Shown here piece after piece: positions 52,704 through 63,762 of a DNA stretch of 64,000 bases. The first letter of the stretch is position 1. Each line of letters begins with the position of its first letter. The notes under the pieces were generated by a model that was given only the letters and a program-made list of their open reading frames with translations, was not told the DNA's origin and did not search any database. Both the position numbers and the translations under genes were made by a program. This DNA comes from an uncultured Flammeovirgaceae bacterium (lineage in GTDB: Bacteria > Bacteroidota > Bacteroidia > Cytophagales > Cyclobacteriaceae). The stretch spans positions 1 through 64,000 of the forward strand of contig CAKZYA010000048.1 of the NCBI GenBank assembly GCA_937883755.1. The letters run 5' to 3'.

Positions 52704-55085
52704 TTAAAACCGTTTTTGCCCCGAAAATTCCATTGCTTCTCCTTTACCGAAGCCGTAGCTGATACCTACCGTAATAAAGCGGCCTCTCAGTCGATAGTCG
52801 TACAAATAAAAATCAGGTTGTCGAGAGCTAATGGTCTCTGATTCAAAAATTCGAGATGCGAATACATCGCGGATACTCAGGTTGAGAATGGTTTTTCCGT
52901 TCATAATTTTCTTACGGACTCCTAAATCAGCGAAGAAATAACTGGAAAGGTTCATCTGAAATGTTTCAAGGGCTGAGCGATAGTTGCCAATCACTTCAAA
53001 ATCTATGTCAGCAGGAAGCTTGAATTTATTAGTTAGTCGACCTGTCCACTGATCTGCGGTAAAGTCAAATGAAGTGGTTTCAAAGCTGCCCTCCCGACTA
53101 AAGTAATTGTAGTTAAAATCCCCGTTTAATGTCCACCATTCGGTAGGGTTGTACTTACCGTTTAGTTCCAATCCAGTAGCTCGGTTGATACCGATATTTT
53201 CGGGTCGGGAGAAACTAACATTATCCTCGAACGTGGCTACTTCCTCAATTACATCGGTAGTATAACGGTGGTATATCGCCGCGCTAAAGGAGACCGGACC
53301 CTTATCAAAAATGCTGGTGACTTCGTAAGAATCGGTAAACTCCGGTTGCAGTAGTGGGTTTCCAGCACTGATGCTGAAGTTGTTACGAATATTGGTAAAC
53401 GGATTCAAGTCCCACAAACCCGGACGATAAATACGGCGAGAGTAGCCCGCTTGTAGCGAAAAGTTATCATTGAGTTTATACGATGTGTGAGCAGTAGGGA
53501 AGAGGTTGATAAACTGCTGCCGACTACTTTCGTCGGTAGTAACCAACAGGGTTCTCATATCGGTACTTTCCAGTCGTAACCCTAGTTTCAGCCCAAACTT
53601 ATCACCTTCATAAGCCCCAGTACTGTACACTCCCAGTACTTCTAAGTCAAAGTCAAACACATTGGTTAAGTCCGGATCAACCACCCAAACATTATCATTC
53701 CAATTGCTAACCGAAAAATCATTAGTTACGTCAGTGTAGACGTATTGTGCTCCGCTTTCTAGGGTGAATACTTCATTAAACGGGTGGGTGTAATCCAATT
53801 GAAAGGTATACTCACCCTCCTTAAAATCGGTACGGGTTTGTTGCTGTTGGCTAAAATCTTCTCCGTTCATAACGGGCGTATTGTTAAACTCAGAAGATTG
53901 ATCTTTTCCAAAGAAATTTCCGATGGCACTGAATAGGAGTGTGTGTTCTTCATTATCAGGAAAGTCCTTTTTGTACTGTAGTTCGTACTGATACTTGGGG
54001 TTGGTCGCTTCGGTCTCTTCATCCCGGTTCCACTGCGAAACCAACGTATTAGAGCTATCCAGAAAATCAAAGTCAGTGTCGGAAAACTCGGTTTCCAGCT
54101 CATAAGCAAAGTGCCCAGTCAGGGAAAGTACGTTATTTTCGTTGATATGATAATCAGTACCGAGGATGATATTAAAAAAAGTTTCGTTCTTATCACTCTC
54201 GCCCTGACTTCTCACCGTGTTATTACTTTCTAAATCTCGATTAATGGTTCGGTACTGAGTAGGAAATGTCCGGTGTCCAACACCCAACTGACTGAATAGA
54301 TTAAATTTTTCGGTACGATTGTTTAGACTTAACCCCAGACTGTGATTGTTAGGAGCGCCCGTATTCAGCGTAACCGAGCCGTTCAATCCGCGCTTTTCCT
54401 CTTTCTTGATTACAATGTTGATTATTCCCGAGGTACCTGAGGCTTCGTACTTCGCCGATGGGTTTGTAATCACCTCGATGCGCTCAATCATATCGGCGGT
54501 AATCGTACCTAGTGCATTTCCACCTTCGCTGGTGAGTACCGAAGGCTTTCCGTTGATAAGAATTCGCACTCCTTGGCTGCCCCGCAGGCTGATTTGTCCT
54601 TCAATATTCACCGCTACCGAGGGGACGTTATTGAGTACTTCCAGCGCACTCGCCCCAGTGCTACTCAAATCTTGCCCCACGTTAAATACCCGTTTATCTA
54701 GCTTGAACTCAGTCTGCGACTTTTCGCCTCGCACCACTATTTCATCTAGTGTCTGATTATCTTCACTAATCGTGATAGTACCAACATTAGCTTTGCCACC
54801 ACTGATTTTCACATCAGCAACGATTTGGGTCACAAAGCCGATGAAGCTTACTTCCAGATAAACATCCGGGTTTTGGGTCGTAAGCACAAACGAGCCATCT
54901 TCAGCAGTCGTAGTCCCGTCAAGCATACTATCATCACTCACCGCTTTCACCATCACCGTAGCGTACTCCACGGGTTGTCTCCCCCCACTTTCTACTACTT
55001 TCCCCGTAATTTGAATGGGTTGGTTTTGGGCGCTCAAAGATTGTAAGCCAATGACCAATAAGAAAAAAACAAAGGCGACTTTCAT
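52704..55085 (-). CDS. TonB-type outer-membrane receptor, paralogue A
   Basis: A 793-residue outer-membrane protein. After the signal peptide (FVFFLLVIGLQSLSAQ) a carboxypeptidase-regulatory-like domain (ITGKVVESGGRQPVEYATVMV) leads to a plug with VRGEKSQTEFKLDKRVFNVGQDL. A large barrel ends RFITVGISYGFGKGEA. It is of the outer-membrane-beta-barrel family often misnamed TonB receptor. Paralogue B at 58.4 kb has the same length and the same motifs throughout, so the two arose by duplication. The ligand is unknown. A direct-repeat element lies 73 bases upstream. Confidence 0.88.
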   Translation of the reverse strand: MKVAFVFFLLVIGLQSLSAQNQPIQITGKVVESGGRQPVEYATVMVKAVSDDSMLDGTTTAEDGSFVLTTQNPDVYLEVSFIGFVTQIVADVKISGGKANVGTITISEDNQTLDEIVVRGEKSQTEFKLDKRVFNVGQDLSSTGASALEVLNNVPSVAVNIEGQISLRGSQGVRILINGKPSVLTSEGGNALGTITADMIERIEVITNPSAKYEASGTSGIINIVIKKEEKRGLNGSVTLNTGAPNNHSLGLSLNNRTEKFNLFSQLGVGHRTFPTQYRTINRDLESNNTVRSQGESDKNETFFNIILGTDYHINENNVLSLTGHFAYELETEFSDTDFDFLDSSNTLVSQWNRDEETEATNPKYQYELQYKKDFPDNEEHTLLFSAIGNFFGKDQSSEFNNTPVMNGEDFSQQQQTRTDFKEGEYTFQLDYTHPFNEVFTLESGAQYVYTDVTNDFSVSNWNDNVWVVDPDLTNVFDFDLEVLGVYSTGAYEGDKFGLKLGLRLESTDMRTLLVTTDESSRQQFINLFPTAHTSYKLNDNFSLQAGYSRRIYRPGLWDLNPFTNIRNNFSISAGNPLLQPEFTDSYEVTSIFDKGPVSFSAAIYHRYTTDVIEEVATFEDNVSFSRPENIGINRATGLELNGKYNPTEWWTLNGDFNYNYFSREGSFETTSFDFTADQWTGRLTNKFKLPADIDFEVIGNYRSALETFQMNLSSYFFADLGVRKKIMNGKTILNLSIRDVFASRIFESETISSRQPDFYLYDYRLRGRFITVGISYGFGKGEAMEFSGQKRF

Positions 55086-55157
55086 GCTTGGATTTAGTTA
55101 AGAGAAGTTAGCAGCTATAAAGGTCAGCATCTTTTCTCAGACGAAAAAATAGTTTCC

Positions 55158-55188
55158 GACGAACGACCGAAGTTTGCGGACGAATGAC
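55158..55188. promoter_or_regulatory. Direct-repeat element upstream of paralogue A
   Basis: GACGAACGAC (55158-55167) and GACGAATGAC (55179-55188) repeat with a 21-bp period, two helical turns. The core GAACGACCGAAGTTTGCGGACGAAT recurs upstream of paralogue B at the same distance from its start (76 and 77 bases). On the gene strand the repeats read GTCATTCGTC and GTCGTTCGTC, close to the CGTTNRT core of LytTR/AgrA-type sites, which also have a 21-bp period. Confidence 0.6.
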
Positions 55189-55296
55189 TATTGGTGAGGA
55201 TGCTGATAACCAGAAAACCTTTTGTATCATTCGCTAGACACATCTTGAAACTTACTGTTAGTACCCGATATTGAGACATCTAAGCCGTTTGTCTTC

Positions 55297-56274
55297 ATGA
55301 TGGCAAAACAATCTGCCGTTGGAATAGATTTAAAACTACTGAACAATTGTTTAGCCCCAATGCCCTCAACGACAAGCACTGTGTTTCCTACTTTTCTGAC
55401 CTATCACGACTTTATTGAAGCCCTAAAACTCTCGAGTATTCCGTCTGACTCAGGGATCTTTGTTTTAGATATCTGCGACATTAGTGAGGAATCTATAGAA
55501 ACTTACCAATACTATCGCAATGAGTTTTACGAGATCAATTTGGCTCAGAACCAGCGGGAGTTTGTGTTTACGGTAGATGGAGTGACGTATCGTCCGGATG
55601 GTACTCCTTTTGTCTGTTTTATTTCTCCCTCTCAACTACAATCATATCAGGTGGTAGGCGAAGATGAGCAAGCGACTGGTTATTGTATTTACATAAAAAA
55701 AGAAGTGCTACGTTCGCTGAGGATTGACACTAATGCCTTGCCCTTTTTTAAGCGAAGTTTTGAGAGTTACTACCTACTAACCCCAGAACAGGCACAAGAA
55801 TTAACGACTTTACTAGATCGGATGAAGCTTGAGTTACAACAACTAAGCTCCGTTACCGATGAAATCCTAAAATCATACCTGGAAGTATTTTTACTTAAAT
55901 GCTGGGGTTATTTAGGTGAGGTGGCGAGCGTAGTAACTTCGCGCCCTCAGGAGATCGTTAGCACGTTTATGGAGACCGTACAAGCGGAAGTAACACAGCA
56001 ACGAACCGTTAGTTTTTACGTAGACGAGCTGGCAATTTCACGCCAACACCTCAATCAGCTAACTCAACAGGTGCTGGGTAAAACAGCCTTGCAAGTGATT
56101 CACGAAGTTTTGCTTGAGAAGGCTAAAGCACTACTTGTTCAATCCTCCTACACTTCTTCCGAAATAGCGTATCAGCTCGGCTTTGAGGAACCCGCTCACT
56201 TTAGTCGCTTTTTCAAGCGGCTTACGAGTGCTACTCCCCGGCAGTATCAGTTACAGAGTCAGAGGAATTGCTAG
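55297..56274 (+). CDS. AraC-family transcription regulator
   Basis: A 325-residue regulator. The N-terminal two-thirds form a ligand or effector domain with no clear family. The C-terminal 100 residues are an AraC double helix-turn-helix: FYVDELAISRQHLNQLTQQVLGKTALQVIHE, then ASEIAYQLGFEEPAHFSRFFKRLTSATPRQY-like text. It is divergent from paralogue A and in line with the MFS transporter gene, which it probably controls. Two adjacent ATG codons (MM) start it. Confidence 0.9.
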   Translation: MMAKQSAVGIDLKLLNNCLAPMPSTTSTVFPTFLTYHDFIEALKLSSIPSDSGIFVLDICDISEESIETYQYYRNEFYEINLAQNQREFVFTVDGVTYRPDGTPFVCFISPSQLQSYQVVGEDEQATGYCIYIKKEVLRSLRIDTNALPFFKRSFESYYLLTPEQAQELTTLLDRMKLELQQLSSVTDEILKSYLEVFLLKCWGYLGEVASVVTSRPQEIVSTFMETVQAEVTQQRTVSFYVDELAISRQHLNQLTQQVLGKTALQVIHEVLLEKAKALLVQSSYTSSEIAYQLGFEEPAHFSRFFKRLTSATPRQYQLQSQRNC

Positions 56275-56395
56275 CTGCGAAATTGGTAATCTTTTGTTGA
56301 TTTTTGGTAAGCGTTAGCTAAGAGTATTCCTGCATCTTTGCTTAAGAAATTAGGTTGAGAAAGAGCAGCCTTTTTTTAGTCAAAGCATACTAGTT

Positions 56396-57613
56396 ATGAA
56401 GCAGAGTAAACCACTGGGTTTGGTATATGCCATTGTGCTTATTGATATTATCGCAGGTTCTATCATGTGGCCGGTATGGCCTCAATTTGTAAAAGCGTAT
56501 GCGCATCCCGAACTGCTACTAGCATTAGGCACCGCTATTTTTATTGGAATACAGTTGTTCACCGCACCACTACTCGGGCGACTTTCGGACATTTACGGAC
56601 GTAAGCCCGTTTTCATTGTGTCGGCGGTAGGCACTTTCTTGGCGAACTTACTTTTACTACCTCGTAATGCATTTGCCTATTTCAGTAATCGGGGAGCCGA
56701 TGGGTTGACTAATGGAGTTTACTCCGCAGTACGTTCCGCCATCACCGATATTTCTGAGGAGGAGGACTTGATGAAGAATATGGGGTTGGAGGGTACAGTA
56801 GTGTCTTTAGGGTTTGTATTGGGTCCGCTAGTAGCTTCGGGGGTGTTACTACTGTTTGGAGTACTACCCGAAGAAGCAACCACGGTACTGGTAGCTACAG
56901 GTATTGGCATTTCGTTACTTAATATTGTGCTCAGTATCATACTGCCCGAAACTATTGCCAAGCGAGTCCACCGTGAGCCAGGTGAGTTACGCCAATTAGT
57001 AAACCGCTCTATCAATGTAGCAAGGTACTGGAAGCGGTTGCAAGTATTAGGGCAGAAGCAGGATGGGCTACTACGGGTAGTGATCCTTCAGCTATGTCTT
57101 ACCTTTAGTTTAGGGTATTACAACTATCTAATCACCTATATTAGTTTAGGGAGCTTGCAACTGACACCTCAAGAGATTTCCTACTTCTTTGCCTACTTCG
57201 GTATTGTTTTTTTGGTGGTTAGCTACATTTTTTACTCTTACCTCATTCAGCGGGTGCAGCCCGAACGCTTTCTACGGATCACTGCTGCTTTAGGTATCAT
57301 TACCCACATCAGTTACGCATTTATAGGTCAGGCAGCCTGGGCATTGTATGTGGTAGTAACCATCGACTGTCTGACGATTGGGCTGCTGCCCGGTATTATG
57401 GATGGTTTGCTCGCTCGGTACGCTGAGCAAGATAGCCGAGGTGAGCTATTCGGTATTACGCAAGCCCTGAATGGATTAGCCAGCTTTGGAACCACGCTAG
57501 TGTTTGGTGGCTTGTCGGTCATTTCCCTTACACTACCTTTTTATTGGTTCGCCCTCTGTCTAGTGCCACTACTGTTTCCTAGCATAATCAAGCCTTTGTT
57601 GGCTACTACCTAA
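56396..57613 (+). CDS. Major facilitator (drug-efflux-like) transporter
   Basis: A 405-residue, 12-helix MFS transporter of the TetA/DHA1 type. Motif A is seen as GRLSDIYGRKPVFIVSA between helices 2 and 3. PLGLVYAIVLIDIIAGSIMWPVWPQF begins helix 1, and GFVLGPLVASGVLLL sits in the fifth helix region. It would export a small hydrophobic compound by proton antiport. It follows the AraC gene by 121 bases in the same direction. Confidence 0.88.
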   Translation: MKQSKPLGLVYAIVLIDIIAGSIMWPVWPQFVKAYAHPELLLALGTAIFIGIQLFTAPLLGRLSDIYGRKPVFIVSAVGTFLANLLLLPRNAFAYFSNRGADGLTNGVYSAVRSAITDISEEEDLMKNMGLEGTVVSLGFVLGPLVASGVLLLFGVLPEEATTVLVATGIGISLLNIVLSIILPETIAKRVHREPGELRQLVNRSINVARYWKRLQVLGQKQDGLLRVVILQLCLTFSLGYYNYLITYISLGSLQLTPQEISYFFAYFGIVFLVVSYIFYSYLIQRVQPERFLRITAALGIITHISYAFIGQAAWALYVVVTIDCLTIGLLPGIMDGLLARYAEQDSRGELFGITQALNGLASFGTTLVFGGLSVISLTLPFYWFALCLVPLLFPSIIKPLLATT

Positions 57614-57657
57614 TCGCAAAATATTAGCTTTTACGGATAAACTGAATCAGATAAATT

Positions 57658-58293
57658 ATGAAACGAAGTATCATCATAATCAGCTATTTGCTGATGACAC
57701 TAAAAGTATGTGCTCAGGTACCTGTAGAGGTATTGGTAGGGCACGAACAAATACAGCACGAGTTTTTCTTTTTTAAAGACCTTGATAAGAAACAAAAACT
57801 GAATTTGTTCAGCATGGCGCGTTTTGCGGTGGACTACGAAGATGCGAACCTTAATAGCTCATTTATTAGTTCGCAGGTCACTTACAACCTTACTCCCCGA
57901 TGGGGGATCTCTGCGGGAGCTAATTACGCCGAACAGGATGTAGCCCCGCTGGTGGCTTTGTCTTATACCTACATTAACGAAAAGGGGGACTTTTTTATTA
58001 ATCTTTTTCCTATGGTATTTGTGCAGCAAAGGCCTGACTATGAGTTGTTTGGTATGGCATTTTATGCGCCTCAGCTTAATGAAAAATGGAGTTTTTTCTC
58101 CCAATTATTCTTTGGCACCAATGTAAACCATCAGTTCAATCGCCACCAGTTTAGCTACCAGCAGCTCCGAGTAGGGTTGGGGTTGAAAGATTGGTTTCAG
58201 TTTGGGTTAGGACTGGACCAGAACATGATTGGGAGTGGAGAAGGTTATACGTATTCTAACAACATTGGACTGTTTATTAGGAAGGAACTTTGA
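57658..58293 (+). CDS. Small outer-membrane beta-barrel protein
   Basis: A 211-residue exported protein (signal ending KVCAQ) made of alternating strands: FSMARFAVDYE, SSQVTYNLTPRWGISAGANY, VALSYTYINEKGDFFINLF, QLRVGLGLKDWFQFGLGLDQ. It ends in IGLFIRKEL. This is a typical 8-10 strand barrel. It follows the MFS gene by 44 bases and could serve as an outer-membrane partner. No family name is assigned. Confidence 0.75.
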   Translation: MKRSIIIISYLLMTLKVCAQVPVEVLVGHEQIQHEFFFFKDLDKKQKLNLFSMARFAVDYEDANLNSSFISSQVTYNLTPRWGISAGANYAEQDVAPLVALSYTYINEKGDFFINLFPMVFVQQRPDYELFGMAFYAPQLNEKWSFFSQLFFGTNVNHQFNRHQFSYQQLRVGLGLKDWFQFGLGLDQNMIGSGEGYTYSNNIGLFIRKEL

Positions 58294-58357
58294 CAGGTAA
58301 ATGGTGTGAATCAGGGTTTTTGATAAGCGACTTTGATTCTGAAGAGCGATAAATAGC

Positions 58358-60739
58358 TTACCTTCTTCTCGCTCCTGAGTAGGTCATAGCTTCACCCTTA
58401 CCGAAGCCGTAGCTAAATCCTAGGGTGATGAAGCGGCCGCGTTGTTCAAAGCTGTACAGGTAAAATTCGGGTTGGTCAATAACGCTTTCCCGGATGCGGG
58501 AAGCAAATGCATCGCGTACACTGAAATTGACGACTGCCTTGCCGTCGAGCATCTTCTTTCGTAAGCCTATGTCAGCAAAAGCAAAGCCCGAAACTTCGCT
58601 CTGCACGGTTTGGAAACCCGATTGGTAGTTGCCAATAAGTTCCAAATCAAAGTTAGCGGGTAGGGCAATTTTGGAAGTTATCCGAGATGACCATTGATCA
58701 CCGGTAAAGTCAAATGATTGTTCCTGGAACTCGCCTTCGCGAATAAAGTAGTTGAGGTTGAAATCACCGTTGAGCTTGAGCCAATTGGTGGGACTGTACT
58801 CTCCGTTTACTTCAAATCCAGTAGTTTGGTCAGTACCGATATTCATCGGCATGGTGGTGTTTACGTTATTCTCAAAGGTAGAAACCCGTTCAACCACATC
58901 AGTAGTGTAACGGTGGTAAACGCTAGTATTAATCGAGGCCTTTTTCAGGTTGAAAATACTGGTAATCTCGTAAGAATCCGTGAACTCGGGTAGTAGATCG
59001 GGGTTGCCAACGCGGATATTAAAGTTGTTTCGGATGTTAAAAAACGGGTTCAAATCCCACAAGCGAGGCCGATAGATTCTTCGGGAGTATCCTCCCTGCA
59101 CGGATATGTTTTCTGCCAGTTTGTATGAAGTGTGAAAGGTAGGAAACAGATTAGTGAAGTTCTGATTATTAGATTCGTTGGTATTGGTCAACAGTGTGCT
59201 CAAGTCAGTATTTTCTGCTCTCAAGCCGAATTTTACGCCCCACTTTTCATCCTCGTAGGCTCCGGTGCCGTACACTCCCAATACTTTTTGGTTCCACTCA
59301 AAATTATTAGTCAGCTCGTCAATTGTTACCAAGGTGCCATCCTGAAATTCTCGCACCGTAAAGTCATTGCCTACGTCGTTAATTACGTACTGCGCCCCTG
59401 TTTCAAGAGTGATTTGCTTGGTAAGCGGATTAGTGTAGTCTAACTTGAAGGTATAGTCTGCTTGTTGATACTCAGTTTCGGTTTGTTGGTCGTTATTAAA
59501 ATTCTCACCCGAGACAGCCGTATTTATGAACTCCGAAGCTTGATCTTTGCCAAAAAACCTTCCGGTTGCGCTTAGCAAGAGCTTATGATCCTCGTTGTTC
59601 TTAAACTCTTTAGCGTACTGCAATTCGTACTGCCACTTGGGGTTCGTTGCTTCAGTAGTTTCCTGTCGGTTCCATTCCGATACTACCGAATTATTTCCAT
59701 CCAGCAGCGCAAAATCATACTGCGATGGTTGACTCTCAACCTCGTAGGCAAAATTACCCGACAGCGTGATGACGTTGTAGGGATCAATATGATAATCAGT
59801 GCCGAGGATTATATTGTAAAAAGTTTCGTTGCGGTACTCGGTACCATCGCTGGTAACAGTTGTATTGTTAATCAGATCGCGGTTAATCGTCTCCGAAAAC
59901 TCAGGAATCGAGCGGTAGCCTACTCCCAGTTGAGTAAACAGGTTGAACTTCTCAGTTCTCCGATTTAAGCTAATGCCGACGCTATGGTTATCAGGAACAC
60001 CCGTATTTAGTGAGATTGAGCCATTCAACCCCCTCTTTTCCTCTTTTTTCAGGATAATGTTTAAGATACCAGATGTGCCCTCGGCCTCGTACTTTGCAGA
60101 AGGGTTGGTGATCACTTCAATACTCTCAATCATATCGGCCGTAATGGTACCGAGGGCGTTGCTCTCCTGATCAGCTAGTACCGAAGGTTTACCATCTACC
60201 AGTATCTGAACTCCAGCACTACCACGCAGACTAATCTGCCCCTCAATGCTTACGTTAACTGAGGGCACATTATTGAGAACTTCTAAGGCACTAGCCCCAG
60301 CACTGGTCAGATCCTGCCCTACGTTGAATACCCGCTTGTCTAGTTTGAATTCGGTACGCGATCGTTCACCTCTAACCACTACTTCATCTAACGCCTGACT
60401 GTCTTCGGACAGTTGAATAGTACCTATGTCAATCTTCCCGTTGCTGACGGTCAGATCACGAAAGGTGCGGGGTTTATAGCCGATGAAACTGACCTCTACA
60501 TAGATATTAGTCGACTCAACATTTAGGGTAAACGTACCATCTGACCCGGTGGTGGTACCCGTAAGCGCTTCTCCGCTGTCCTTATTGGCTACCATAATGG
60601 TAGCAAACTCTACGGGTTGTTGGTTTACTTCATTCTGAATGGTTCCGGTGATGGTTACTTCCTTATTTTGAGCAATGGTAGTGCCTATACTCAAAACTAT
60701 AATCATCAGAAAAAGTGCAAACTTGAAACAATTAGTCAT
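58358..60739 (-). CDS. TonB-type outer-membrane receptor, paralogue B
   Basis: The ORF track gives 829 residues, but ATG 60739 (MTNCFKFALFLMIIVLSIGTTIAQ) is the right signal peptide start, which makes it 793 residues, exactly as long as paralogue A. It shares ITGTIQNEVNQQPVEFATIMV, VVRGERSRTEFKLDKRVFNVGQDL, ALEVLNNVPSV and the C-terminal GRFITLGFSYGFGKGEA. It is divergent from the LytS-type kinase gene; the gap between them carries the direct-repeat element also found at paralogue A. Ligand unknown. Confidence 0.88.
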   Translation of the reverse strand: MTNCFKFALFLMIIVLSIGTTIAQNKEVTITGTIQNEVNQQPVEFATIMVANKDSGEALTGTTTGSDGTFTLNVESTNIYVEVSFIGYKPRTFRDLTVSNGKIDIGTIQLSEDSQALDEVVVRGERSRTEFKLDKRVFNVGQDLTSAGASALEVLNNVPSVNVSIEGQISLRGSAGVQILVDGKPSVLADQESNALGTITADMIESIEVITNPSAKYEAEGTSGILNIILKKEEKRGLNGSISLNTGVPDNHSVGISLNRRTEKFNLFTQLGVGYRSIPEFSETINRDLINNTTVTSDGTEYRNETFYNIILGTDYHIDPYNVITLSGNFAYEVESQPSQYDFALLDGNNSVVSEWNRQETTEATNPKWQYELQYAKEFKNNEDHKLLLSATGRFFGKDQASEFINTAVSGENFNNDQQTETEYQQADYTFKLDYTNPLTKQITLETGAQYVINDVGNDFTVREFQDGTLVTIDELTNNFEWNQKVLGVYGTGAYEDEKWGVKFGLRAENTDLSTLLTNTNESNNQNFTNLFPTFHTSYKLAENISVQGGYSRRIYRPRLWDLNPFFNIRNNFNIRVGNPDLLPEFTDSYEITSIFNLKKASINTSVYHRYTTDVVERVSTFENNVNTTMPMNIGTDQTTGFEVNGEYSPTNWLKLNGDFNLNYFIREGEFQEQSFDFTGDQWSSRITSKIALPANFDLELIGNYQSGFQTVQSEVSGFAFADIGLRKKMLDGKAVVNFSVRDAFASRIRESVIDQPEFYLYSFEQRGRFITLGFSYGFGKGEAMTYSGARRR

Positions 60740-60812
60740 AAACGTAAAATCAAATAGTAGCGACGTTATAATATTTAGTACGCAGAAATGTTTAGTATGG
60801 CAGAGTAAAATC

Positions 60813-60843
60813 GGTGAACGACCAAAGTTTTCCGACGAATAGC
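60813..60843. promoter_or_regulatory. Direct-repeat element upstream of paralogue B
   Basis: GGTGAACGAC (60813-60822) and GACGAATAGC (60834-60843) repeat with a 21-bp period. The 25-base core GAACGACCAAAGTTTTCCGACGAAT (60816-60840) matches the paralogue A core at 21 of 25 positions and lies 77 bases from the ATG. It sits in the shared gap with the kinase gene. Confidence 0.6.
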
Positions 60844-60932
60844 ACAACTACCGTTGACCAGCAGAAAATTGGTGTTGATAATGGTAAAAATGTCGTTGGT
60901 CTCTTTATGTCATATTGATCTCGGATAATGAT

Positions 60933-60940
60933 TATCTTTG
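60933..60940 (+). promoter_or_regulatory. -7 promoter box before the LytS-type kinase
   Basis: TATCTTTG fits TAnnTTTG and ends 4 bases before ATG 60945. No clear TTTG lies 19 bases upstream. If used, the message would be leaderless, as at the ferritin operon. Confidence 0.4.
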
Positions 60941-60944
60941 GAAG

Positions 60945-62000
60945 ATGCCGTCTAAAGATTTTGTTTCACCACTGTCGTATAAAGAAATTCTGTTTCAGGT
61001 ACTACTGCACGGAGTAGTGTTTATTTTTTACTCTTATGATCGGCGGAACCCGCAGGTAGAATCCTATCAGATAGTGTTTTTTTTAACCTACGCCGTAGCT
61101 GCCTTAATCATCAATTATCTTTTACTACCCCAGTTCTTATATCAGAAAAAGCATCTGCAATTTGTGGGTTGGACAATTGTGGTTATCGCTGCATTAATAT
61201 TTATAGAAGAAGCAGTGATAGAACAGATTTATTTTCCTGATACCCGTGGGCAACGGTTTCTGGGAGTTTTCTTTAGTTTGTGGGGAGTACTGCCAGTAAT
61301 CACAGTATTGTCGGGGTTTAAGTTTGCCTGGGATGCACTGAGAAAACAGCAGGAGGTTGAGTTATTAAAGAGTACGATTAAAGAAAGTGAGCTAAAGTTT
61401 TTAAAATCTCAGATCAACCCTCACTTTCTATTTAATAACCTTAACAACCTATACTCTTACGCCATAGATTTTTCCCCTAAGACCCCCGAGATTATTCTGA
61501 AGTTGAGTTCGGTACTACGCTACATGCTTTACGAATGCAAAGAAAAGTTAGTGCCTTTGACCAAAGAGGTAAAGCAACTGGAGAATTTTACCCAGCTCAG
61601 TCAGCTTCAAATTGAAGAGCGGGGAGTGGTAAACTTTAGAGCGGAAATTAATCAATCGGGTTACCAAATTGCTCCGCTGATACTGATTGTCTTTATCGAG
61701 AATGCCTTTAAACACAGCCAGGCTAGTCAGTCCGAAAATATTCGGATTGATATTGCTATCCAACTTTCGGAAGAAGGTGAACTGGGATTTAGCTGTAAGA
61801 ACAACTTTCAACCCGTGGCTAATACTGATAATCTGGCTCAGGGTATTGGACTAGACAATGTGAAAAAACGGCTACAACTTCTCTACCCCAATACTCACCA
61901 GTTAACCATTAAGGAAACTGATAGTCAGTACGAAGTGTATCTGTCAATGCAGTTAAAAAGACTGAATAAAGAAAAAATGGTCTACCAGTATACTAATTGA
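60945..62000 (+). CDS. LytS-type sensor histidine kinase
   Basis: A 351-residue membrane kinase. Four transmembrane helices in the first 150 residues are followed by a coiled linker and the His_kinase domain with the phospho-acceptor in KSQINPHFLFNNLNNLYSYA. A compact HATPase follows (IVFIENAFKHSQ, GIGLDNVKKRLQLLYP). The ORF-track TTG start is replaced by ATG 60945. It pairs with the LytTR regulator 116 bases downstream. The sensed signal is unknown; helices without a periplasmic domain suggest a membrane-borne cue. Confidence 0.92.
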   Translation: MPSKDFVSPLSYKEILFQVLLHGVVFIFYSYDRRNPQVESYQIVFFLTYAVAALIINYLLLPQFLYQKKHLQFVGWTIVVIAALIFIEEAVIEQIYFPDTRGQRFLGVFFSLWGVLPVITVLSGFKFAWDALRKQQEVELLKSTIKESELKFLKSQINPHFLFNNLNNLYSYAIDFSPKTPEIILKLSSVLRYMLYECKEKLVPLTKEVKQLENFTQLSQLQIEERGVVNFRAEINQSGYQIAPLILIVFIENAFKHSQASQSENIRIDIAIQLSEEGELGFSCKNNFQPVANTDNLAQGIGLDNVKKRLQLLYPNTHQLTIKETDSQYEVYLSMQLKRLNKEKMVYQYTN

Positions 62001-62115: not shown

Positions 62116-62823
62116 ATGAACTGTATTATCATTGAAGATCAGCCCCCCGCTCAGCGAATTCTTAAAAAGTACATTGAAGACATTGGGTCGCTACAACTAA
62201 AAGCTACCCTCTCCGATGCTATTCAGGCGATTAATTACTTGAAGTCAGAGAAAGTTGATTTGATCTTCTTGGATATTCACTTACCGAAGATTTCGGGCAT
62301 TGATCTGCTAAAGACTAGCAACAATTTGCCACCGATTATCTTAACCACCGCCTTTGCTGATTATGCTTTAGAGAGTTACGAGTTTAATGTAGTAGATTAT
62401 CTTCTGAAGCCTTTTTCCTTTCAGCGATTTGTTAAGGCAGTCTCCCGAGTACCTACGTCTGATAGTGTTTCTGAACAGCCATTGGGCGAAGCTAAAGAGA
62501 TACCTCCAATCCGTCGCGAGCTATTTATTAAGTCGGGCTACGAGCATATTAAGGTTTTAGTAGATGATATCATCTACATCAAATCTGATGCGGATTACAC
62601 CGAGATTTTTCTGCCAGAAAAAAAACTTTTATCTTCCGAATCGCTCCGAAACTGGCTAGAAAAACTGGGTGACCAACAGTTTGTTCGGGTGCATAAATCC
62701 TACGTCATCAACGCTGATAAAATTGTCAAAGTGGTAGGTAATCAAATATATATGACCACTGATGCAGTAGTGCCCATTGGTAGAGCTTTCCGGGAGGATT
62801 TCACCGAGAAGTTCCTAAATTAA
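62116..62823 (+). CDS. LytTR response regulator
   Basis: A 235-residue regulator with a receiver domain (acidic IIEDQPPA, phospho-acceptor Asp53 in LIFLDIHLPK, Lys in DYLLKPF). A LytTR DNA-binding domain follows (about 130-232; IYIKSDADYTEIFL, FVRVHKSYVINADKI, VVPIGRAFREDF). LytTR proteins bind direct repeats with a 21-bp period. Such repeats lie upstream of both receptor paralogues nearby, so these are likely targets. Confidence 0.93.
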   Translation: MNCIIIEDQPPAQRILKKYIEDIGSLQLKATLSDAIQAINYLKSEKVDLIFLDIHLPKISGIDLLKTSNNLPPIILTTAFADYALESYEFNVVDYLLKPFSFQRFVKAVSRVPTSDSVSEQPLGEAKEIPPIRRELFIKSGYEHIKVLVDDIIYIKSDADYTEIFLPEKKLLSSESLRNWLEKLGDQQFVRVHKSYVINADKIVKVVGNQIYMTTDAVVPIGRAFREDFTEKFLN

Positions 62824-62871: not shown

Positions 62872-63762
62872 ATGAAAGAACTCAGAAAAGAGGACATTAG
62901 CCAAGAAGTATTTGACCTCTACGACGACTACGCCCATAACCGCATCGAGCGTCGGCAATTTTTGGATAAACTCTCTACTTATGCGGTAGGTGGTTTAACC
63001 TTGTCTTCATTGCTCAGTTTTATTATGCCCGATTACCAGAATAAAATTCAGGTGCGGCAAGATGATCCCCGACTAAAGTCAGAGTTCATTGAGTATGAAT
63101 CTCCGAAGGGTGGGGGGACGATTAAAGCGTTATTATCCAAGCCTGCCGATGCGTCAGGAAAACTGCCTGGTATTGTAGTGGTGCATGAAAACCGGGGATT
63201 GAATCCCCATATTGAAGATGTAGCCCGTCGAGCCGCGTTAGCCGGGTTTATTTCTCTAGCGCCTGATGCCCTAACTCCATTGGGCGGTTATCCAGGTACC
63301 GACGATGAAGGGCGGACATTACAGCGGCAGCGCGATCGAGACGAGATGTTGGAAGACTTTATCGCGGCCCACGATCATCTGAATAATCACTCTGAATGTA
63401 CCAGAAAAGTAGGCGTAGTTGGCTTTTGCTTCGGCGGTTGGATTTCTAATATGATGGCAGTGCGGGTATCAGAGTTAGATGCGGCGGTGCCATTTTACGG
63501 TGGGCAACCCGATGCTGAAATAGTTCCTCAAATCGAAGCTCCCCTACTACTTCATTTCGGAGAGCTAGATAAGCGGGTAAACGAAGGCTGGCCGGATTAC
63601 GAAGCTACTTTAAAAAAGCATGATAAAGAATATCAGGCTCATACGTACGCTAATGCTAATCATGGCTTTCATAATGATACAACTCCTCGTTACGATGCCG
63701 ACGCTGCTAAGCTGGCTTGGGAACGAACGATTGAGTTCTTTAAGAAACACTTGAAGGCATAA
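62872..63762 (+). CDS. Dienelactone hydrolase family protein
   Basis: A 296-residue alpha/beta hydrolase with the dienelactone hydrolase triad: Cys in VGFCFGGW, Asp in [11 protein letters not shown] and His in NANHGFHND. An N-terminal extension [27 protein letters not shown] looks like a Tat-type or anchor segment, so it may be exported. The substrate is not known. It follows the LytTR gene by 48 bases and may be transcribed with it. Confidence 0.9.

Follow-up and report, generated by a model that had tools for sequence, protein, structure and literature searches.

Paired direct repeats with a 21-bp period upstream of outer-membrane receptor genes as probable operators of a divergently encoded LytTR response regulator

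Introduction

Response regulators of the LytTR family bind direct repeats of 9–11 nt that lie 11–13 nt apart (PMC4847170). The direct repeats bound by YpdB, GGCATTTCAT, are spaced by 11 nt and have a 21-bp period (PMC4847170, PMC5552118), and regulators of the AgrA/SilA/ComE type use direct repeats of 9–10 bp, with 11–12 bp between them, at the promoters that they activate (PMC2766830). The AlgR box of Pseudomonas aeruginosa is CCGTTCGTC (PMC4064291). A LytTR–kinase pair of Flavobacterium johnsoniae (FJOH_RS09515/RS09520) was mutated in parallel in antibiotic-producer coevolution lines (PMC10197871). Our full-text search, which was limited to open-access literature as opposed to subscription journals, turned up no LytTR operator of Bacteroidota that had been defined by experiment, and it found neither the gene cassette nor the operator sequence described below.

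Here, we analyzed a 64,000-nt stretch of DNA from an uncultured Flammeovirgaceae bacterium (hereafter, the window), in which two receptor paralogues share an upstream element that a preliminary description had read as a likely LytTR site.

Results

Two receptor paralogues share an upstream element

The window encodes two receptors on the minus strand, receptor A (52704–55085) and receptor B (58358–60739), with the same domain architecture (CarboxypepD_reg, Plug, and OMP_b-brl_3) and 61% identity in protein comparison. Divergent from receptor B, on the plus strand, are its conserved partners, a sensor histidine kinase (60915–62000) and a REC-LytTR response regulator (62116–62823) that is the proposed binder; the regulator gene lies 1.28 kb from the element of receptor B, in agreement with the arrangement described previously. 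The domain search identified PF00072 (E 4e-19) and PF04397 (E 4e-17) in the regulator, and comparison of the LytTR domain alone with solved structures gave weak matches only (AgrA, E 0.35). The same search identified His_kinase (PF06580) in the kinase and no 5TM-5TMR_LYT domain (PF07694), and we therefore classified the two proteins as a PF06580/LytTR pair, not LytS proper (HPK8 class). An AraC-family regulator (55297–56274, plus strand) is divergent from receptor A and is followed downstream by an MFS transporter and then a small protein without a recognized family. A dienelactone hydrolase-family gene (62872–63762) recurs beside the receptor or the kinase cassette at variable positions, being found also at L034, L037, L038, L071, L077, and L086, as well as at L035 and L046 although the kinase is absent from these last two loci.

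The 25-mer cores of the two elements, read on the plus strand (A, 55161–55185; B, 60816–60840), agree at 22 of 25 positions rather than the 21 counted initially. Their distances from the receptor start codons, 76 and 77 bases, were confirmed against the ATGs at 55085 (A) and 60739 (B). Across 1000 shuffles of both upstream regions, no two 25-mers agreed at more than 19 positions. Once the element was masked, the best 25-mer shared by the two regions matched at 17 of 25 positions, which was not above chance.

The half-sites read better on the receptor (minus) strand, as GTCGTTC(A/G), with the central AAGTTT representing spacer. On this strand, each element resolves into two 9-bp half-sites that repeat with a period of 21 bp, GTCATTCGT-N12-GTCGTTCGT for putative operator A (55159–55188) and GCTATTCGT-N12-GTCGTTCAC for putative operator B (60814–60843). 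The proximal half-sites occupy 55159–55167 (GTCGTTCGT) and 60814–60822 (GTCGTTCAC), and the distal half-sites, both of which read ATT instead of GTT, occupy 55180–55188 (GTCATTCGT) and 60835–60843 (GCTATTCGT). The distal half-site of operator B is degenerate, matching the consensus poorly (4 of 9 positions), and is recognizable only through comparison with relatives. The direct repeat that had been reported for both cores was clear in A (9 of 11 positions) but weak in B when taken alone (5 of 11).

Bacteroidota promoters have the -7/-33 form. Likely -7 boxes are present on the minus strand at 55118–55125 for receptor A (GACCTTTA) and at 60773–60780 for receptor B (TACTAAAT), each 42 nt downstream of the start of the proximal half-site. 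A TTnCTTTG-like box occupies a fixed position 41–42 nt downstream of that point in most orthologues; with this spacing, the proximal half-site lies directly upstream of the predicted -33 region.

The 21-bp spacing is conserved in orthologous loci

When up to three mismatches were allowed, neither the window nor the 7.6-Mb genome contained copies other than the two 25-mers. Nor did the 25-mers occur in any of 296 further genomes sampled from this family. This absence of the exact 25-mer looked like non-conservation, but the half-sites are kept across families and the spacer is not. Because the repeat in operator B was unconvincing from one genome, we turned to orthologues. Scanning both paralogues against 85,462 species genomes returned 79 loci, in approximately 30 of which the receptor is divergent from or adjoins orthologues of the kinase and LytTR regulator. 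A kinase search in 395 members of the class gave 13 more matches beyond the genome of the window, all from other families, with at least one (L129) duplicating a locus already among the 79.

A recurrent pair was found in the upstream regions of orthologues, exemplified by GTCGTTCACCCCCCAACTTCTGCCGTTCAAAG at L086. The best GTCGTTCAC pair in 42 kinase–receptor intergenic regions, with element A and its counterpart in the congener G156 left out, showed a single peak at a spacing of 21, where the receptor-facing score was 12.9 as compared with 10.8 (sd 0.18) across the remaining 28 spacings between 12 and 40 (z 11.3). The 13 loci outside the motif definition gave a receptor-facing z of 9.2 at the same spacing, and 17 homologous receptors without the kinase–LytTR pair alongside showed no peak at 21. 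Consensus-free counting of repeats yielded a weak 21-bp signal (7.1 versus about 6.3), indicating that the half-site consensus is needed. Among 25 aligned sites, the G and TT of the GTT core were nearly invariant.

A second putative operator faces the kinase operon

On the opposite strand, the same spacing test in the 42 regions gave a peak of its own at 21 (z 10.3; z 9.9 in 13 held-out loci), which suggested a separate operator for the divergent kinase–regulator operon. In the window, this putative operator (60850–60900, plus strand) precedes the operon and consists of three half-sites with a period of 21, ACCGTTGAC (60850–60858), GGTGTTGAT (60871–60879), and GTCGTTGGT (60892–60900). All four members of the genus contain such a triple (p ≤ 0.004 for each when compared with shuffles), but it was not general outside the genus. 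In G297, G494, G610, and G616, the receptor-side profile described in the next section also matched sites that face the kinase, on the opposite strand. The kinase-facing operator is an addition to the preliminary description, which had missed it.

Profile searches rank the putative receptor operators first

We built a profile from 22 sites, all outside the genus of the window. Searched against the 7.6-Mb genome, this profile placed operator B first (23.2 bits, E 4e-4) and operator A second (17.4 bits, E 0.03), operator A standing only marginally above the next genomic match (15.9 bits). That third match (C25, E 0.09) falls within a coding ORF and was taken as noise. The operators of receptors A and B were likewise the top two matches in G156, and the operator of receptor B alone was found in G071. 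In G616, the receptor is approximately 3 kb from the kinase operon, and an element is present at each. First ranks in several other genomes arise by construction, since those genomes supplied sites to the profile; the genus of the window supplied none. A separate match in G380 (L181, 1501–1539; E 0.014) precedes another outer-membrane receptor gene and marks a possible further member of the regulon.

The element accompanies the kinase–LytTR pair

The motif might instead be used by an unlinked transcription factor or be a promoter feature common to the receptor family, and three loci (L045, L062, and L066) do carry the element without the pair in the examined flanks. Their genomes, however, encode a kinase orthologue elsewhere (46–55%), whereas 11 genomes without such an orthologue (at most 39% identity) gave no profile match at the receptor. 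Moreover, the motif is not common to the receptors that lack the pair, and it also faces the kinase gene. We consider it very unlikely that either of these alternatives accounts for the element.

Two loci (L050 and L057) belong to genomes that contain a kinase orthologue, yet their receptor homologues have no element. L050 encodes a second receptor, and the kinase-linked receptor of the same genome (L187) has the element. In Flexithrix, the source of L057, the element is located instead between the LytTR gene and an unrelated TonB-type receptor. This Flexithrix locus (L207) clusters the kinase–LytTR pair and the element with two PepSY_TM genes and the different TonB-type receptor, a gene content that hints at iron or siderophore uptake.

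Across 20 kinase loci, a profile match was found near the kinase in four of five orthologous pairs (≥45%) as compared with one of 15 less similar pairs; at the fifth orthologous locus (L190), the kinase gene is truncated by the end of the contig. Higher LytTR identity went with a higher motif score (Spearman 0.57, P 2e-4, uncorrected for phylogeny).

Arrangement of receptor A within the genus

Two arrangements of receptor A were found within the genus. In G071 and G126, receptor A is directly behind receptor B (88–105 bp), and the gap is devoid of the element. In the window, as in G156, the AraC–MFS–small protein module separates the two receptors, and receptor A has its own operator. The operator at receptor A was found exactly where this gene cannot share the promoter of receptor B (two genomes versus two), and the genus represents a natural experiment, with the operator occurring only where the second receptor stands alone. 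Receptor identity makes G156 the outgroup (82% versus 90%), so that either the G071/G126 line may have lost the module together with the operator or the module may have been transferred. The module spans 55297–58293 in the window; the loci compared were L139, L120, and L034. The MFS gene of G156 (L034, 9852–11062) matches as two overlapping segments that lie in different frames, which points to a frameshift or else to an error of assembly.

These arrangements bear on two further explanations of the element. First, direct repeats approximately 21 bp apart are used at AraC-family sites as well, and the AraC-family gene at 55297–56274 is positioned between the two elements and divergent from receptor A, so that the elements might be operators of this regulator. 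The 21-bp period is compatible with such operators. The AraC gene is nevertheless missing from the locus in G071, G126, and nearly all other relatives, although the element of receptor B is conserved there, and the presence of the element follows the kinase–LytTR pair, not AraC. As an AraC homologue stands beside the receptor in one distinct relative only (G156, at L034) and the element occurs in dozens, AraC cannot explain the conserved element at receptor B, and we rejected it as the binder, leaving it little more than a marginal probability.

Second, the elements of two receptors that are 61% identical could be a leftover of the receptor duplication with no regulator involved, and the preliminary description itself had named a duplication lacking conservation in related species as what would speak against its reading. 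The half-sites were, on the contrary, conserved across families, in distant Bacteroidota as well, with a variable spacer, the upstream regions had nothing above chance in common outside the element (17 of 25 at best), and receptor A lacks the element where it directly follows receptor B in G071 and G126. We regard this as the least probable of the explanations considered here, with next to no likelihood. The reading in which the LytTR regulator binds the elements is the one pursued below.

Discussion

We conclude that the elements very probably serve as operators for the LytTR response regulator whose gene lies at 62116–62823. They consist of two 9-bp direct repeats that lie 12 bp apart, within the ranges known for LytTR sites, contain a GTT core (ATT in the distal half-sites), and are located directly upstream of a predicted promoter. 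The LytTR-site reading of the preliminary description holds up, with the 21-bp spacing in orthologues, the co-occurrence with the pair, the top ranks in the genome, and half-sites resembling the AlgR box all agreeing with it. This reading, which predicts protein–DNA binding, is supported in that it passes every computational test applied.

In the mechanism that we propose, the membrane kinase (60915–62000) would sense an envelope or extracellular cue and phosphorylate the regulator. A regulator dimer could then contact both 9-bp half-sites from the same face of the DNA, where they are separated by two helical turns, with a single LytTR domain on each. From this position directly upstream of the -33 region, the regulator would presumably activate transcription of receptor B, and receptor A would be activated via its own copy of the operator. 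Through the second operator, which points in the opposite direction, the regulator may also control its own kinase–regulator operon.

A broader proposal is that kinase, LytTR regulator, and receptor constitute one dedicated signalling unit across Bacteroidota, with the kinase reading the ligand or activity of the receptor, and that this closed receptor–kinase–operator loop takes the place of the sigma/anti-sigma circuits that are common for TonB-type receptors. We consider this speculative and rather improbable; if it were true, the regulon would comprise only the receptor(s) and the kinase–regulator operon. The half-site (GTCGTTCA), spacing, orientation rule, and tiny predicted regulon have been defined from sequence for a cassette present in several families, and the previously unassigned receptor family with OMP_b-brl_3 and CarboxypepD_reg domains thereby becomes directly testable, with one regulator and two or three promoters.

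A LytTR operator with an adjacent two-component pair is a well-known kind of system. The AlgZ/AlgR system also has a LytTR-type regulator, and TCGTTCGTC of element A differs from the AlgR box CCGTTCGTC by a single base. The AlgR boxes at algD, however, are widely separated, with some inverted or at a great distance upstream, and the genes under AlgR control are many and unrelated; the pair described here has a strict 21-bp period, is found at the promoter of one receptor family, and belongs to another phylum. AgrA, SilA, and ComE operate in peptide pheromone circuits of Firmicutes, whereas we recognized no pheromone gene or peptide-sensor kinase here, and their half-site sequence differs from ours outside the GTT core. 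YpdA/YpdB and BtsS/BtsR of Escherichia coli likewise consist of a kinase and a REC-LytTR regulator, and their regulons are very small and centered on one transport protein, as is predicted for the present case. The YpdA and BtsS kinases contain 5TM-5TMR_LYT and GAF domains, whereas the kinase in the window contains PF06580 alone; the targets of YpdB and BtsR are inner-membrane transporters, whereas those proposed here are outer-membrane receptors, and the half-site is also different.
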